NCBI RefSeq assembly: GCF_008727925.1
Contig: NZ_VTWT01000001.1
Location: 806,001-870,000, forward strand
From: Adhaeribacter soli
GTDB lineage: Bacteria; Bacteroidota; Bacteroidia; Cytophagales; Hymenobacteraceae
Length of the DNA: 64,000 nucleotides
Direction of reading: 5' to 3'
Within the stretch, counting starts at the first letter, position 1. The number at the start of each line of letters is the position of its first letter. Below are positions 3,514 to 50,396 of the stretch, piece by piece. Under the pieces are notes generated by a model. It made no database searches and had not been told where the DNA came from. It worked only from the letters and a program-made list of their open reading frames with translations. A program made the position numbers and the translations under genes.

Positions 3514-3706
3514 CTGGCGCATGTGTTCAGCGAAAGCGTCACTTGGGCTTAAAGAAGAGGAGGAAGTCTCCAGACTTCCGTGTTTAACCCACCTGAATGG
3601 CTAAAAGCAGGGGAGGACTTTTTAGGAAAGATTTTGAAACGCCAGTCCGGTGACTGGCTTATGTCTTTCAGGCGCAAGTGACGCTTTCGCTTAACACTTG
3701 CGCCAG
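3514..3706. repeat. inverted-repeat element, about 193 bp (REPIN/MITE-like)
   Basis: The left arm at 3514-3547 and the right arm at 3676-3706 are imperfect reverse complements, sharing the core AGCGAAAGCGTCACTTG. Each arm is close to a hairpin in itself (GGCGCAAGTG paired with CACTTGCGCC on the right). Two further palindromes lie inside: GGAAGTCTCCAGACTTCC at 3562-3579 and GCCAGTCCGGTGACTGGC at 3641-3658. It fills the gap between the terminator at 3495 and the stop of the hybrid kinase at 3714. The arm motif resembles that of the element at 11090-11264. No coding capacity. Confidence 0.75.
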
Positions 3707-10186: not shown

Positions 10187-10936
10187 CTATTGCTCTATTA
10201 CAAAGCTTGCTTCTACAGTTGAAGAAATAATGATCTGGCCGCCGGCAATAGTTGGTCCGCTCTGGTCGGACATGCTTGCTTCAGCCATTTTATTGTACAT
10301 GCCGCCGGCCATACCCCGGTACGGCATCGGGTAACCCACGCCGGAATTTTCGTTTATAGCATACACCCGGCCGATTTTGGTACCCAGTTCGCCGGTAAGG
10401 GAAATTGCTTTTTCTTTGGCGGCCTGAACGGCTAATTTACGGGCCTGTTCGCGGTGTTTCTTTAATTCGGAAGTCCGGAACTCGATGCCGTCTACCCGGT
10501 TGGCTCCGGCTTTATAGATCCCGGTCAGCAGGTCATCGAACTTATCGATCTTGCGGATGAGCACATTAACCGATTTCTGGGTGCTGTAAAAATCCGGGTT
10601 CGTTTGGCCGTATTCCCCGGAATGATAAATGGGTTGCACGGACATGTAAGTAGTTTGCACATCCTTCGATTCTACGCCGTACTTTTTCAGATAAGCCAGC
10701 ACCGAAGCTACTTTCTCGTCGTTCTGTTTGCGGGCTTCGTCAAGCGTTTTGCCGCGTACGTCTACAGCCAGACTCAGCATAATTTCGTTGGGTTGCACCT
10801 TCACTTCCCCGGTTCCGGAAACGGTAACCAACGGCGGGTAAGGCGTGGTTTGCGGCTGGGGTTTAGGCAGCTGGGCAAAAGAAGTTAAAGCGATAAACGA
10901 TAGCAAAAGGGCGCTCAGTAATTTCCGGGTTTTCAT
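10187..10936 (-). CDS. SIMPL (DUF541) domain exported protein
   Basis: A 249-residue protein with a signal peptide (about residues 1-21, cleaved near SFA-Q) and a SIMPL domain over most of the rest. Recognisable features are VSGTGEVKVQPNEIMLSLAV at the start of the domain, the middle VNVLIRKIDKFDDLLTG, and the C-terminal IIISSTVEASFVIEQ. SIMPL proteins are periplasmic or surface proteins of poorly defined function, linked in some bacteria to oxidative stress or envelope integrity. It has its own predicted promoter at 10979-11012 and is not in an operon. Confidence 0.87.
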   Translation of the reverse strand: MKTRKLLSALLLSFIALTSFAQLPKPQPQTTPYPPLVTVSGTGEVKVQPNEIMLSLAVDVRGKTLDEARKQNDEKVASVLAYLKKYGVESKDVQTTYMSVQPIYHSGEYGQTNPDFYSTQKSVNVLIRKIDKFDDLLTGIYKAGANRVDGIEFRTSELKKHREQARKLAVQAAKEKAISLTGELGTKIGRVYAINENSGVGYPMPYRGMAGGMYNKMAEASMSDQSGPTIAGGQIIISSTVEASFVIEQ

Positions 10937-11030: not shown

Positions 11031-11077
11031 AAAAAAACGGCCTGAAAAAGGAATTATCCTTTTTTAGGCCGTTTTTG
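11031..11077 (-). terminator. terminator of the metal-efflux operon
   Basis: AAAAACGGCCTGAAAAAGG at 11033-11051 pairs with CCTTTTTTAGGCCGTTTTT at 11058-11076. On the minus strand the stem is followed by a run of about eight T. It is the first strong terminator downstream of the efflux adaptor gene ending at 11365. Readthrough of the repeat at 11090-11264 would precede it. Confidence 0.7.
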
Positions 11078-11089
11078 AAAAAAACATCG

Positions 11090-11264
11090 CGCAAGTTTAG
11101 CAAAGCGTAACTTGTGTGTAACCATTTGGTCAGTTTGTAAAGACCTTGCCTGCAAGGCAACCAAAGCGGCTGCTATTGGATGCTGAAATATTTGATCAGT
11201 TATTTCCGCCAGTTACAAACTGGCTATATAAAGACCCCACAAGTTACGCTTCGCTAAACTTGCG
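11090..11264. repeat. inverted-repeat element copy A (REPIN/MITE-like), 175 bp
   Basis: Terminal arms of 27 bp (11090-11116 and 11238-11264) are reverse complements with one mismatch; each is itself a weak hairpin (CAAGTT paired with AACTTG). Inside are TTGCCTGCAAGGCAA and GCCAGTTACAAACTGGC, both palindromic. The whole element, interior included, aligns with the element at 48744-48930. A short open frame crossing it is read-through of the repeat, not a gene. Confidence 0.85.
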
Positions 11265-11277
11265 GGATGAACCTCAG

Positions 11278-11343
11278 CTACTTCCGCTTTACAAACTGGC
11301 TAATAGAAAAAAGCCACAAATTACAGCTCCGCCTAAATCTGCA
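11278..11343. repeat. diverged partial copy of the right half of the 11090 element
   Basis: CTTCCGCTTTACAAACTGGC, then GCCACAAATTACAGCTCCGC and CTAAATCTGC, parallel the right half of the preceding element (TTTCCGCCAGTTACAAACTGGC ... CCACAAGTTACGCTTCGCTAAACTTGCG). It lies 13 bases after it in the same orientation, so the right half appears duplicated and decayed. Confidence 0.55.
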
Positions 11344-11364
11344 ACATAGCCTTTCTATTACTCC

Positions 11365-12489
11365 TTACTCTTCCCCGGTATTCTTCATTCCCATTAAAAG
11401 GTTGTAAGCGCCTTTGGTAACAATATTCCTGCCTTCAAAAGCGGCGGCATTCTTAATTTCGATCCAGTTTTCATGACTTGCACCGGTTTGAACGGGAACA
11501 AGCTCGAATGTGTTTTTACCGGCGGCCACGAACAGGAAATCTTTGCCTTCAAAACTCACCACGGCTTCTTCCGGAACCGCCCAGCTTTCGTTGCTGGTTT
11601 GCTGCACTTCCGCGTTCAGGTAAGTACCCGGGATCAGGTTTTCGGCATTTTCCAGTTTGGCGTGTACTTCGATGGAACGGTCTTCGGCAAAGGTTTTTCC
11701 GGTATAAATAATTTCAGCGGCATGTTTTTTATCCGGGGCGCTGTTGGTGAAGGCAACCACCGGTTGGCCGGGCTGCAATCCGGCGATGTCCTTTTCAAAG
11801 GCTTTCAGGTTCAGCAGCAACTCTTGCGGGTTTACCAGTTCAAAAAGCACATCGGAAGGGGAGGCGTATTTCCCAACGTTCACGTTTACTTTGGCCACGT
11901 AGCCGTTAAAAGGTGCGTACAGTTTAATGGTCCGGGTTATGGAATTGGGCGTGAGGGTTTGCGGATTAATAGCGATGAGCTTCAGCTTTTCTTCCAGGGC
12001 CTGCAGGGCAATACGGGTGGCTTGGTTTTCGGCGGCGGCCTGCTGAAACTCTTTATCGGAGGTGGCTTTGCTTTGGTTAAGGTCTTTTTGCCGCGCGTAT
12101 TCCGCTTCAGTTTGCCGTAGCTTTGCTTTAGTGGTGAGGTAATCCTGTTGCAGTTCTATGTACTGGTTGTCTTCCATAGTGGCCAGCACTTCGCCTTTGC
12201 GGAAAGGCTTGCCGGGAATCAGGTTCGTGGATTTTACGTAACCGCCCAATGCATTGCTCATCGAAACCAGGTTTTGCGGGGGCAGGTCCACGGTACCGTT
12301 CAGCCGGATAGTCTGGGGAATTATTTTTTTCTGCAGCGGCTGGGTAGCGAGTTCAAACGTACTTAATTGTTTTTCGGAAAGCGTTACCTGGTTTGGTTGC
12401 GCTTTTTCAGCAGGTTGTTCGGTTTGGGTTTCTTTGGAATTGCAGCTTAGCAGCAGCCCGAAACCAATTATTAAAAATATATTTTTCAT
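11365..12489 (-). CDS. RND efflux periplasmic adaptor (CusB/CzcB-like lipoprotein)
   Basis: A 374-residue membrane-fusion protein. A lipoprotein signal ends at the lipobox LLLSC (Cys16). Then come a barrel-sandwich segment (LGGYVKSTNLIPGKPFRKGE), an alpha-helical hairpin rich in Gln/Ala/Glu (about 110-175), the second lipoyl half (LYAPFNGYVAKVNVNVGKYA) and beta-barrel/proximal domains. It links the inner-membrane pump to the outer-membrane channel. It starts 10 bases after the stop of the CusA-TolC fusion and so is the last gene of that operon. The N-terminal His/Met-rich metal domain of some CusB proteins is not evident. Confidence 0.92.
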   Translation of the reverse strand: MKNIFLIIGFGLLLSCNSKETQTEQPAEKAQPNQVTLSEKQLSTFELATQPLQKKIIPQTIRLNGTVDLPPQNLVSMSNALGGYVKSTNLIPGKPFRKGEVLATMEDNQYIELQQDYLTTKAKLRQTEAEYARQKDLNQSKATSDKEFQQAAAENQATRIALQALEEKLKLIAINPQTLTPNSITRTIKLYAPFNGYVAKVNVNVGKYASPSDVLFELVNPQELLLNLKAFEKDIAGLQPGQPVVAFTNSAPDKKHAAEIIYTGKTFAEDRSIEVHAKLENAENLIPGTYLNAEVQQTSNESWAVPEEAVVSFEGKDFLFVAAGKNTFELVPVQTGASHENWIEIKNAAAFEGRNIVTKGAYNLLMGMKNTGEE

Positions 12490-48164: not shown

Positions 48165-48344
48165 ATGAATAGTATGAAAGGCTTATTTAATTTTACGGAA
48201 GTGCTTACGTATTTTTTCCGGAAGCCCGATCCGAACCGGAAACCGACGTTCAACCTCCGTGTAATGCACGGAATTAATAAAATTTCGATCCTTATTTTCC
48301 TGGTTTGTTTAATTGTAATGGCCATAAGGTTATTTACCCGATGA
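48165..48344 (+). CDS. very small membrane protein (DUF6728-like)
   Basis: A 59-residue protein that begins MNSMKGLFNFTEVLTYFFRK and has one C-terminal transmembrane helix (ISILIFLVCLIVMAIRLF). The pattern of FFRK-PDPNR, NLRVMHGINK and the hydrophobic tail matches, from memory, a family of tiny conserved Bacteroidota proteins (DUF6728). Function unknown. Its TGA overlaps the ATG of the YjbR-like gene (ATGA at 48341-48344), so the two are translationally coupled. Confidence 0.65.
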   Translation: MNSMKGLFNFTEVLTYFFRKPDPNRKPTFNLRVMHGINKISILIFLVCLIVMAIRLFTR

Positions 48345-48727
48345 ACATAGAGGATTACCGCGAATATTGTCTGGCTAAGAAAGGGGTAACCGAAAGTTTC
48401 CCTTTCGATGCCGATACGCTGGTTTTTAAAGTCGGCGGCAAAATGTTCGCGCTTACTAACCTTTCCGATTTTAACGGCGGTATTGCCCTGAAATGTGAGC
48501 CGGACAAAGCTATTCAGCTCCGCGAGGAGTTTCCGGACGAAGTGGAAGGCGCTTATCACATGAATAAAAAGCACTGGAACAACGTAAAACCAAACGGCTC
48601 TATTCCGGACCTGGTAATTAAAGAATGGATCGATCAGTCTTACCTGCTGGTTTTTAATTCCCTTACCCGCTCCCAAAGGCTGGCCGTAGAAACCGAAAAC
48701 GAAAGACCACCAGGCCTGATTTATTAA
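48341..48727 (+). CDS. MmcQ/YjbR family protein
   Basis: A 128-residue protein counted from the ATG at 48341 (MNIEDYREYCLAKKGVTESF). That start overlaps the stop of the upstream small gene, so a frame 12 codons longer is rejected. The segments FDADTLVFKVGGKMFAL, ALKCEPDKAIQLREEFP and KKHWNNVKPNGSIPD place it in the YjbR/MmcQ family, which has a double-wing fold. DNA binding has been proposed for the family but is not established. The C-terminus is somewhat extended. Confidence 0.87.
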   Translation: MNIEDYREYCLAKKGVTESFPFDADTLVFKVGGKMFALTNLSDFNGGIALKCEPDKAIQLREEFPDEVEGAYHMNKKHWNNVKPNGSIPDLVIKEWIDQSYLLVFNSLTRSQRLAVETENERPPGLIY

Positions 48728-48743
48728 CGGCGCACTTTTCTAT

Positions 48744-48930
48744 CCCGCATGTTTAGGCGAAGCCGTAACTTGTGGGTTAATTCTTTGGTCAGTTTGTAAC
48801 TGACCTTGCCTGCAAGGCAAAGATCCTGCCTGCTATGGAAAACTGAAATAGTTGAACAGCAACTTCCGCCAGTTACAAACTGGCTATTTGAAGAAAGTCA
48901 CAAGTTACGCTCCGCTAAACTTGTGGCATG
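48744..48930. repeat. inverted-repeat element copy B (REPIN/MITE-like), 187 bp
   Basis: The left arm 48744-48775 and the right arm 48899-48930 are imperfect reverse complements (GTAACTTGTG facing CACAAGTTAC, and GTTTAGGCG facing CGCTAAAC). The interior has GGTCAGTTTGTAACTGACC, TTGCCTGCAAGGCAA and CCGCCAGTTACAAACTGGC, the same ordered blocks as copy A at 11090-11264. It lies just after the YjbR-like gene. A short open frame within it is read-through of the repeat. Confidence 0.85.
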
Positions 48931-49031: not shown

Positions 49032-50396
49032 TTAATGAGGAAGTTGCGTTTGCATAGGCTGAGTTAGGTTTTCTGCCGGAGTACTTACTTCTTCCGAAGA
49101 AACCACCAACGGAGCAGTTTCTTTCAGGTGTTTGTCAGGCCAGGTATGTACTTTGCTTAAAGAATCCCACATCAGGCGGTCGAGTTCCGGGTAGAAATTA
49201 TCATCTTCCGGACGGGCATTTAAAAGCAGTACCCATTTCTTGCCGTCTTTAATATGCGCCATTAAGGTTGCGCTGCCGGTTAAGGCTCCCGTGTGCCACC
49301 AGTTGCCATTCGGGTTCACAAACCAGCCCATGGCATAGCCGCGACGGTCGCTGGTTGGAGTGGTCATCAGGGCAACCGTTTCGGGTTTAAGGGGCGCGGC
49401 TTCATCTTTGCGGTCGAGGCTGGCCATTAGCTTTATCAGATCGGGTGCCGAAGCGATCCAGCCTCCGTGTGCATCCATGGCTTCCAGGTTAAAGCCGCCG
49501 TATTGCAAAGGCACTTTTTTGGCTTCGCCGGTTACCGGTTTTACTTTCCGGTCCTTCGGATCGAAATAACGCACTTCCAGCGGATTTTTATCTTCGTAAT
49601 TGTTTTTACCCAAGGCCATGCTTGTAATTCCCAACGGCTGGAGAATGGCGTTCTGCACGTAAACCTCGTACGTATCCTGGGTTACCTCTTCAATAATGCG
49701 ACCCAGGATATTAAAGCCCAGGTTAGAATACGCAAACTGGGTTCCCGGGGTAAAATCGAGCGGCTTTTGCAGCATGTACCGGATAATGGAAAGGGCATCG
49801 GCCGGAGCCGGTACGTTCATGGCATCCGCAATTTTTACGGCATTGAACATTGGATCGCCCTCGGGGCTGGTATCGCGGTCCCAGCCGGCGGTATGCTCCA
49901 GTAAATGCTGTATGGTGATTTGTTCTACCCGGTTATCCGCATAATTCAGGAAAGGGGCGGAACTTAGCACCCCGCCGGCACCAAAAACATGGTCGTCGAT
50001 GCACAGAATATCATCCTGGATCAGCTTCATGATGGCCATGGCCGTTATAGGTTTGGATAGGCTGGCGATCCGGAAAAGATGGTCGGGCCGCATGGCCTGA
50101 TTTTCGTCGGCCTGACCAAAGCCCCGCGCATAAAGTAACTGATCATCCTGGGCTACCGCTACGGCCGCTCCGGGAATCTGCCATTTCTTCAGGAAAATGG
50201 TGACATCATCGTCTACCACGGTAAGTTCGGGAACAGGTGTACCGGTTTGCGAATAGGCAGGAGGGATGATGAAAAAAGTCATAACCTGAATAAGGAAAAA
50301 CGCCAGGTTAAAGTTCTGGTAAAAAATTAATGCCAAGGTAAAAAAGAAAATTGCGTTGCAAACGCTGCCAACAGAAATAAAAAAGCCAACGAACAC
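49032..50396 (-). CDS. serine hydrolase of the beta-lactamase class C/DD-peptidase fold
   Basis: Up to 454 residues. The SxxK motif is SLSK in FRIASLSKPITAMAIMK, the YxN motif is YSN in FAYSNLGFNILGRI, and the KTG-equivalent is HTG in WWHTGALTGS. These define the S12 family of esterases, DD-peptidases and class C beta-lactamases; substrate cannot be decided. The start is uncertain. The ATG at 50396 gives two hydrophobic stretches, whereas an ATG at 50282 (MTFFIIPPAYSQT) gives a short signal-like N-terminus with a TACCTTGG near-match to the -7 consensus about 50 bases upstream. Probably exported. Monocistronic. Confidence 0.87.
   Translation of the reverse strand: MFVGFFISVGSVCNAIFFFTLALIFYQNFNLAFFLIQVMTFFIIPPAYSQTGTPVPELTVVDDDVTIFLKKWQIPGAAVAVAQDDQLLYARGFGQADENQAMRPDHLFRIASLSKPITAMAIMKLIQDDILCIDDHVFGAGGVLSSAPFLNYADNRVEQITIQHLLEHTAGWDRDTSPEGDPMFNAVKIADAMNVPAPADALSIIRYMLQKPLDFTPGTQFAYSNLGFNILGRIIEEVTQDTYEVYVQNAILQPLGITSMALGKNNYEDKNPLEVRYFDPKDRKVKPVTGEAKKVPLQYGGFNLEAMDAHGGWIASAPDLIKLMASLDRKDEAAPLKPETVALMTTPTSDRRGYAMGWFVNPNGNWWHTGALTGSATLMAHIKDGKKWVLLLNARPEDDNFYPELDRLMWDSLSKVHTWPDKHLKETAPLVVSSEEVSTPAENLTQPMQTQLPH

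Follow-up and report, generated by a model that had tools for sequence, protein, structure and literature searches.

RAYT–REPIN systems have been studied mainly in Proteobacteria. The REPs and BIMEs of E. coli are imperfect hairpins with a conserved mismatch zone, arranged as inverted pairs, associated with a RAYT and marked by a GTAG foot. The elements described here resemble them in all of these respects except the foot, which they lack. They are also like REPINs in their inverted REP-like hairpins, their dispersal, their folding back as a single strand and their linkage to RAYT genes (here in relatives), but differ from REPINs, as these are presented in the sections of Bertels and Rainey (2011, PMC3116915) on which we draw, in having two hairpins per arm, a length of 185–190 bases, no GT[AG]G foot and no linked RAYT found in their own genome.

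We take the names of RAYT groups from Quentin et al. (2018, PMC6006769), in whose relevant sections the Bacteroidota branch is on record mainly through ‘atypical structures’: the genes of subclass 2.6 (RAYT group 5) are flanked by ‘atypical secondary structures’ without GT[AG]G, copies of which occur elsewhere in the genome. The RAYTs considered below resemble this group, as characterised there, in their occurrence in Bacteroidetes, their length of roughly 180 amino acids and their WQ and Y[IL]HQNP-type motifs. A second precedent is provided by TIRtrons, RAYT-like genes between inverted repeats, some of them double-palindromic, with copies that also occur as dimers; the parts of Di Nocera et al. 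(2013, PMC3733652) used here report them for Pseudomonas, Stenotrophomonas, Acidobacteria and others, whereas the present case is in Bacteroidota. In two Pseudomonas cases in the same account, a degenerate REP is joined to an unrelated stem-loop and present in hundreds of copies (PMC3733652). The 26 TIRYTs in the pertinent section of PMC6006769 belong to subclasses 2.1, 2.2 and 2.5, not 2.6.

In this work, we analysed a window of 64,000 nucleotides from Adhaeribacter soli, together with the rest of its genome and those of its relatives, starting from two similar intergenic elements. We observe a family with inverted two-hairpin arms, its dispersal, two empty sites, linkage to RAYT genes in relatives and no target duplication of fixed length. 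On this basis, the two elements are very probably old copies of a RAYT-mobilised, non-autonomous element of the REPIN kind, a type that we observed solely in Bacteroidota.

Two elements with inverted two-hairpin arms

Copy 1 spans positions 11085–11269 (plus strand, from CAT to ATG) and copy 2 positions 48741–48930 (plus strand), ends slightly wider than in the first-pass annotation. In a whole-genome search, the 175 bases of copy 1 used as query match copy 2 with 81% identity over query bases 1–173 (E value of 6.1 × 10−37). The earlier description of two homologous elements with inverted terminal arms and the same internal palindromes is confirmed by this match and by the presence of TTGCCTGCAAGGCAA and GCCAGTTACAAACTGGC, in the same order, in both copies. 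It had also placed both between genes, with lengths near 180 bases, and this holds at 185–190 bases: copy 1 lies between two minus-strand open reading frames (ORFs; 10187–10936 and 11365–12489), copy 2 between convergent ones (48305–48727 and 49032–50396), and no ORF of at least 100 amino acids overlaps either copy.

In copy 1, the left outer REP-like hairpin (11090–11116, plus strand) is composed of a CAAGTT stem, a TA/GT mismatch zone, a GC stem and a variable loop. Adjoining this left arm is an extra inner hairpin, GGTCAGTTTGTAAAGACC (11128–11145, plus strand), followed by the interior palindrome TTGCCTGCAAGGCAA (11146–11160, plus strand), the right inner hairpin GCCAGTTACAAACTGGC (11208–11224, minus strand) and the right outer REP-like hairpin (11238–11264, minus strand). 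The corresponding parts of copy 2 are its left outer hairpin (48746–48774, plus strand), the left inner hairpin GGTCAGTTTGTAACTGACC (48787–48805, plus strand), TTGCCTGCAAGGCAA (48806–48820, plus strand), GCCAGTTACAAACTGGC (48868–48884, minus strand) and the right outer hairpin (48899–48925, minus strand). Adjoining copy 1 is the lone, decayed right arm of a second element (11285–11348, minus strand; 53.1 bits, E value of 1.3 × 10−10).

Read from the outside in, an end consists of CAT, two variable bases and CGCAAGTTTAG(G)CGNAG(C)CGTAACTTGTG, with the opposite end as its inverse and some letters differing in copy 2. The outer hairpin has the mismatched stem CAAGTT-TAGCGNAGCGT-AACTTG, and each arm is completed, 11–14 bases further in for the window copies, by an inner hairpin that reads inwards as GGTCAGTTTGTAACTGACC on the left and GCCAGTTTGTAACTGGC on the right. 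The suggestion that each arm is a hairpin as in REPINs is therefore right as to hairpin arms, but the arms are double and have no GT[AG]G at the hairpin foot (0 of the 21 ends scored, out of 22 in 11 copies).

Across the 22 arms of these 11 copies, the mismatch zone above the CAAGTT/AACTTG stem is strongly preserved, with A opposite G in all 22; the neighbouring T (C once) stands opposite T or C in 21 arms and opposite A in one. Cleavage of the E. coli REP requires a mismatched bulge in its stem, according to the section of PMC8266576 on this point. The structure as drawn pairs in 94.6% of cells, compared to 27–40% when the partner is slid by one to three columns. Covariation in the own copies is weak. 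Pairs with both partners altered number two, where shuffles give 1.2 (170 of 500 reach this value), and further pair types number seven, where shuffles give 7.4 (478 of 500 reach it). The count of doubly changed cells (reached by 2 of 500) and the covariation score (3 of 500), by contrast, are higher than in most shuffles. As single-stranded DNA, copy 1 (11090–11270) folds with a z-score of −8.09 and copy 2 (48741–48930) with one of −6.16, in each case as one long fold-back that none of 200 shuffles equals. The two arm loops of an element are identical in 10 of 27 pairs from mixed species (2.0 expected from shuffles), compared to one of eight in the own genome (0.99 expected); since the latter is the shuffle level, we make no claim of concerted evolution of the loops.

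A dispersed and old family

In the 4.97-Mb genome there are 11 near-full-length copies, the two in the window included, where near-full-length means that at least 170 of the 175 query bases are covered (one locus, L007, is excluded as its right end is decayed). Matching pieces number 55 in all, many of them single ends. With an arm model built from the 22 arms of the 11 copies, we count at least 59 arms here at an E value ≤ 0.01, a lower bound because 150 of 2,665 first-look candidates were scored, and 27 in a genome of the same genus (G001); of 17 family genomes scanned with the model, 15 have matches, counting the own one. By a hand count over 43 of the 59 own arms, 16 neighbouring pairs lie no more than 500 bases apart; 15 of these are inverted (plus, then minus), 12 spanning 185–212 bases, and the single same-direction pair is that formed by the lone arm beside copy 1. 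An inverted REP-like pair as the unit and many dispersed copies, two marks of a REPIN, are thus both found here, with the intergenic setting checked for the window copies. A different dispersed repeat (around GTTGTTTCGCTATCGCTCAACATGACA, in both orientations) lies in the downstream flanks of L002 and L020, and the flanks of L006, L010, L020 and L051 contain short near-exact matches to a G001 locus, L274.

At the DNA level, a search of 39 genomes gives matches only within the family: 13 of its 25 genomes, counting the own one, have them, and at an E value ≤ 0.001 the other 12 and all 14 genomes from other families have none. The exact core motif CAAGTTTAGCGN{2,4}GCGTAACTTG reaches further, with at least 114 loci in genome contigs. 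The titles of all 114 loci listed are ones we take to be Bacteroidota, and they include Pontibacter, Rufibacter, Botryobacter, Paludibacter and Mucilaginibacter as well as metagenome-assembled genomes (MAGs) of Flavobacteriaceae, Saprospiraceae and Prevotellaceae.

In G001, the element is missing from both window sites, and the flanking genes are kept in order. The distance between matching flanks is 322 bases in the own genome against 91 in G001 at one site and 449 against 205 at the other, and reading the G001 letters reveals no element at either; these empty sites rest on flank-match coordinates and that reading, as base-by-base alignments there are poor and the exact target site is not fixed. 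The first-pass annotation had proposed looking for further copies and for empty sites in a relative, and both were found. Together, dispersed family, inverted arms and two empty sites bear out its view that these are copies of one mobile unit, not chance hairpins.

Their positions relative to ORF ends indicate that both copies may be transcribed: judged by eye, copy 1 sits between the end of an ORF and a terminator-like hairpin (11040–11085), and copy 2 begins 13 bases past a stop codon. One could therefore regard the elements mainly as structured RNA of untranslated regions, for example as 3′-end stabilizers, with movement incidental. We consider this very improbable, as a scan of the window against Rfam at gathering thresholds matched no family, the nearest genome keeps the genes and lacks the element at both sites, and in relatives the bounded inverted-repeat ends are linked to a nuclease gene.

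Small size and inverted ends would equally suit a MITE of a DDE-type insertion sequence with terminal inverted repeats. We found no target duplication of fixed length in the 11 copies, in which the longest flanking direct repeats are 3–5 bases with varying length and offset, and rejected a DDE MITE on these grounds; the same ends moreover bracket RAYT genes in relatives, and we give this reading almost no credence.

The copies in this genome look old. Even the best pair among the 11 is only 88.1% identical, so recent movement is not supported there. When 29 own loci, some overlapping, were compared with 12 from G001 with the elements masked, one shared copy was found (own L011 and G001 L275), with flanks matching on both sides at 87–89%, and at least one insertion thus predates the split from G001. 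We did not count L007/L014 and L284 as shared sites, their protein-level similarity being weak, one-sided and out of order. In Botryobacter ruber, two copies with this outer hairpin, L175 (read in reverse) and L208, lie on different contigs and agree at 98.0% over 148 bases, more than the three other copies compared. This speaks for movement in that species, although one flank of the pair is alike for about 13 bases and may point to a larger duplication instead. Together with L229, these B. ruber loci are shorter REPINs with the same outer hairpin, in each of which the loop letters agree between the arms.

RAYT genes with the same arms in relatives

We scanned 12 relatives for Y1 transposase genes, of which 11 have any, and three of them place a RAYT inside or beside the arms. 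In G011, a 182-amino-acid RAYT (L097) lies inside inverted CAAGTT two-hairpin arms. In G022, a RAYT split over two frames (L102) is preceded by a REPIN, with outer stems of CAAGTT on the left and CCAGTT on the right, and in G018 a REPIN with CAAGTTTGAGCG-type hairpins lies downstream of a RAYT (L296). The L097 protein scores 88.6 bits against NF047646, the NCBIfam model for REP-associated tyrosine transposases, and a RAYT from contig C5 of the own genome 83.3 bits (cut-off 80; the scan covered these two). Also in G018, three similar RAYT genes lie within about 7 kb (L298, 848–7918 of G018:C45), each with an arm of one and the same type downstream. This arrangement fits an autonomous, transposable REPIN with its RAYT inside the arms, but also tandem duplication.

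Across the wider set of core loci, we searched with a profile based on nine of these RAYT proteins. It detects such a gene no more than 500 bases from the core motif in 11 of the 114 loci listed, and farther away in two. The 11 loci represent 10 genes, one gene being split between L182 and L204. By chance fewer than one would be expected, an estimate based on roughly five RAYTs per 5 Mb rather than on a control run. The gene lies between two inverted arms at five core loci, two from Rufibacter (L185 and L226) and one each from MAGs of Flavobacteriales (L172), Cytophagales (L174) and Cyclobacteriaceae (L271). RAYTs flanked by the same REPs therefore exist in relatives, and L097 and these five loci can be likened, by description, to TIRYTs or TIRtrons in having a RAYT-like gene between inverted repeats. 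One arm pattern scan overlooked L097 owing to its loop length and may overlook others.

These genes inside or beside the same arms are what makes a RAYT-mobilized REPIN the best reading. Mapped on a 32-protein tree, the CAAGTT-arm label, which 10 RAYTs carry, requires three changes, compared to a mean of 7.5 for shuffled labels (0 of 500 as low). These RAYTs fall into two groups, whose support values of 92/96 and 85/93 do not rank with those of the strongly supported forks; the first group also includes L086, with a stem of another type. The five RAYTs that have the shared core but differ in stem show no clustering (159 of 500 shuffles as low). The tree leaves out L182 and L204, which are cut by locus ends, the frameshifted L102, L134, which had been read on the wrong strand, and, among others, L089, L098, L103, L108, L110, L116, L190 and L296–L299.

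Arm types and RAYTs in the own genome

The first-pass annotation had also suggested looking for a RAYT between the same arms. Found in relatives, such a gene did not appear in the own genome by Pfam families, the L097 protein or arm matches. The Pfam search gives seven Y1 transposase matches there, two IS200-like and five RAYT-like, and the search with the L097 protein adds three distant homologues, for eight RAYT-like genes in all. None of these eight has CAAGTT arms in its 1.5-kb flanks, nor does any of the seven Y1 loci, so our searches turned up no cognate RAYT between matching REPs in this genome. Of the eight RAYT-like proteins, the seven placed in the tree all fall outside the CAAGTT-arm groups. 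Given that the assembly consists of 16 contigs, a RAYT may be hidden in a gap. The G001 genome has copies of the family and no RAYT match.

The own RAYTs have hairpins of other kinds around them. The subclass 2.6 motifs NH[LIV]H, WQ and YIH[QN]NP, as given in the corresponding section of PMC6006769 and compared by motif letters, are exact in L024–L026, which have NHLH, WQ and YIHQNP, whereas L097 departs from them with NHAH and YLHQNP. The C5 RAYT, which is 60% identical to that of L097, has SHVH. Together with L023, the three genes L024, L025 and L026 are flanked by different hairpin families, such as ACGAGCCGGAGGCTCGCACCAGC and TTCCGGACATCTTTGTCCGGA. At G000:C5:92194–92730 (L114/L027), the C5 RAYT is uninterrupted and sits inside inverted two-hairpin arms with a GTAGAG stem.

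A further REPIN in the window (3515–3706, plus strand, ends set by eye) has the same two-hairpin layout with an arm of a second type, with a CAAGTG stem and the inner hairpins GAAGTCTCCAGACTTC and GCCAGTCCGGTGACTGGC. Allowing up to three mismatches, the CAAGTG hairpin occurs 34 times here and 14 times in G001, against none in a reversed control; by coordinates, none of those in the own genome is near a RAYT. The same stem is found in the arms around a RAYT of G018 (L100), where the loop is shorter and the CAAGTG pattern, with the loop length used, has no match. For both of the larger arm sets, CAAGTT and CAAGTG, the linked RAYT is thus lost, in a gap or replaced in its service by another RAYT.

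That last option, in which the REPIN would still be served in trans by a non-cognate own RAYT such as the one at G000:C5:92194, is conceivable in view of the TTAGCGNAGCG core and the two-hairpin layout that the arms have in common despite their differing stems. This RAYT is intact between arms of like layout and has a small set of its own, 10 GTAGAG hairpins in the genome, two of them its own flanks and some with matched changes on both sides of the stem, and RAYTs of several lineages have the TTAGCGNAGCG core in arms whose stems differ. Against such service, the RAYTs whose flanks were read each carry an arm stem of their own, the CAAGTT copies here have diverged and G001 keeps copies with no RAYT match; we regard it as unlikely.

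For the RAYT-mobilized REPIN, the earlier proposal of movement by a RAYT stands as far as the linkage of RAYT and arms in relatives goes, but here the copies are old and show no link to any own RAYT. The transposase was probably borrowed. Movement may have begun with the arms folding when their strand is single, for instance on the lagging-strand template, whereupon a RAYT-type HUH nuclease with a single tyrosine, close to group 5 (subclass 2.6), would bind the outer hairpins, cut, and rejoin the ends. The excised or copied single strand would then join a new single-stranded target without target duplication, and the mobilizing RAYT would since have been lost from this genome.

Taken further, the family may belong to a REPIN system spanning the Bacteroidota, with one core, TTAGCGNAGCG, exchangeable stems and, where a RAYT gene lies inside the two-hairpin arms, an autonomous transposable REPIN. 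One RAYT lineage might mobilize related REPINs in trans, and large populations might outlive their own transposase. We put this forward tentatively, as a conjecture that we hold to be considerably less likely than not.

What we describe is a real, dispersed family of RAYT-type REPINs of Bacteroidota, old in this genome and of a kind already known. Taken singly, two-hairpin ends and RAYTs between inverted ends have precedents, as both the flanking structures of group 5 and TIRtrons are published, in the portions of those accounts on which we rely. Our analysis adds the two-hairpin layout in the Bacteroidota branch, one core across the phylum and sets of copies without a linked RAYT; a literature search for the letters CAAGTTTAGCG returned two papers, both unrelated by title. 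The missing RAYT partner and the wide distribution of the core are the interesting parts. With them, the Bacteroidota branch gains a concrete end structure, RAYT genes inside such ends and sets of copies that persist where no matching RAYT was found, and whether REPINs depend on, outlive or share their transposase can now be tested.
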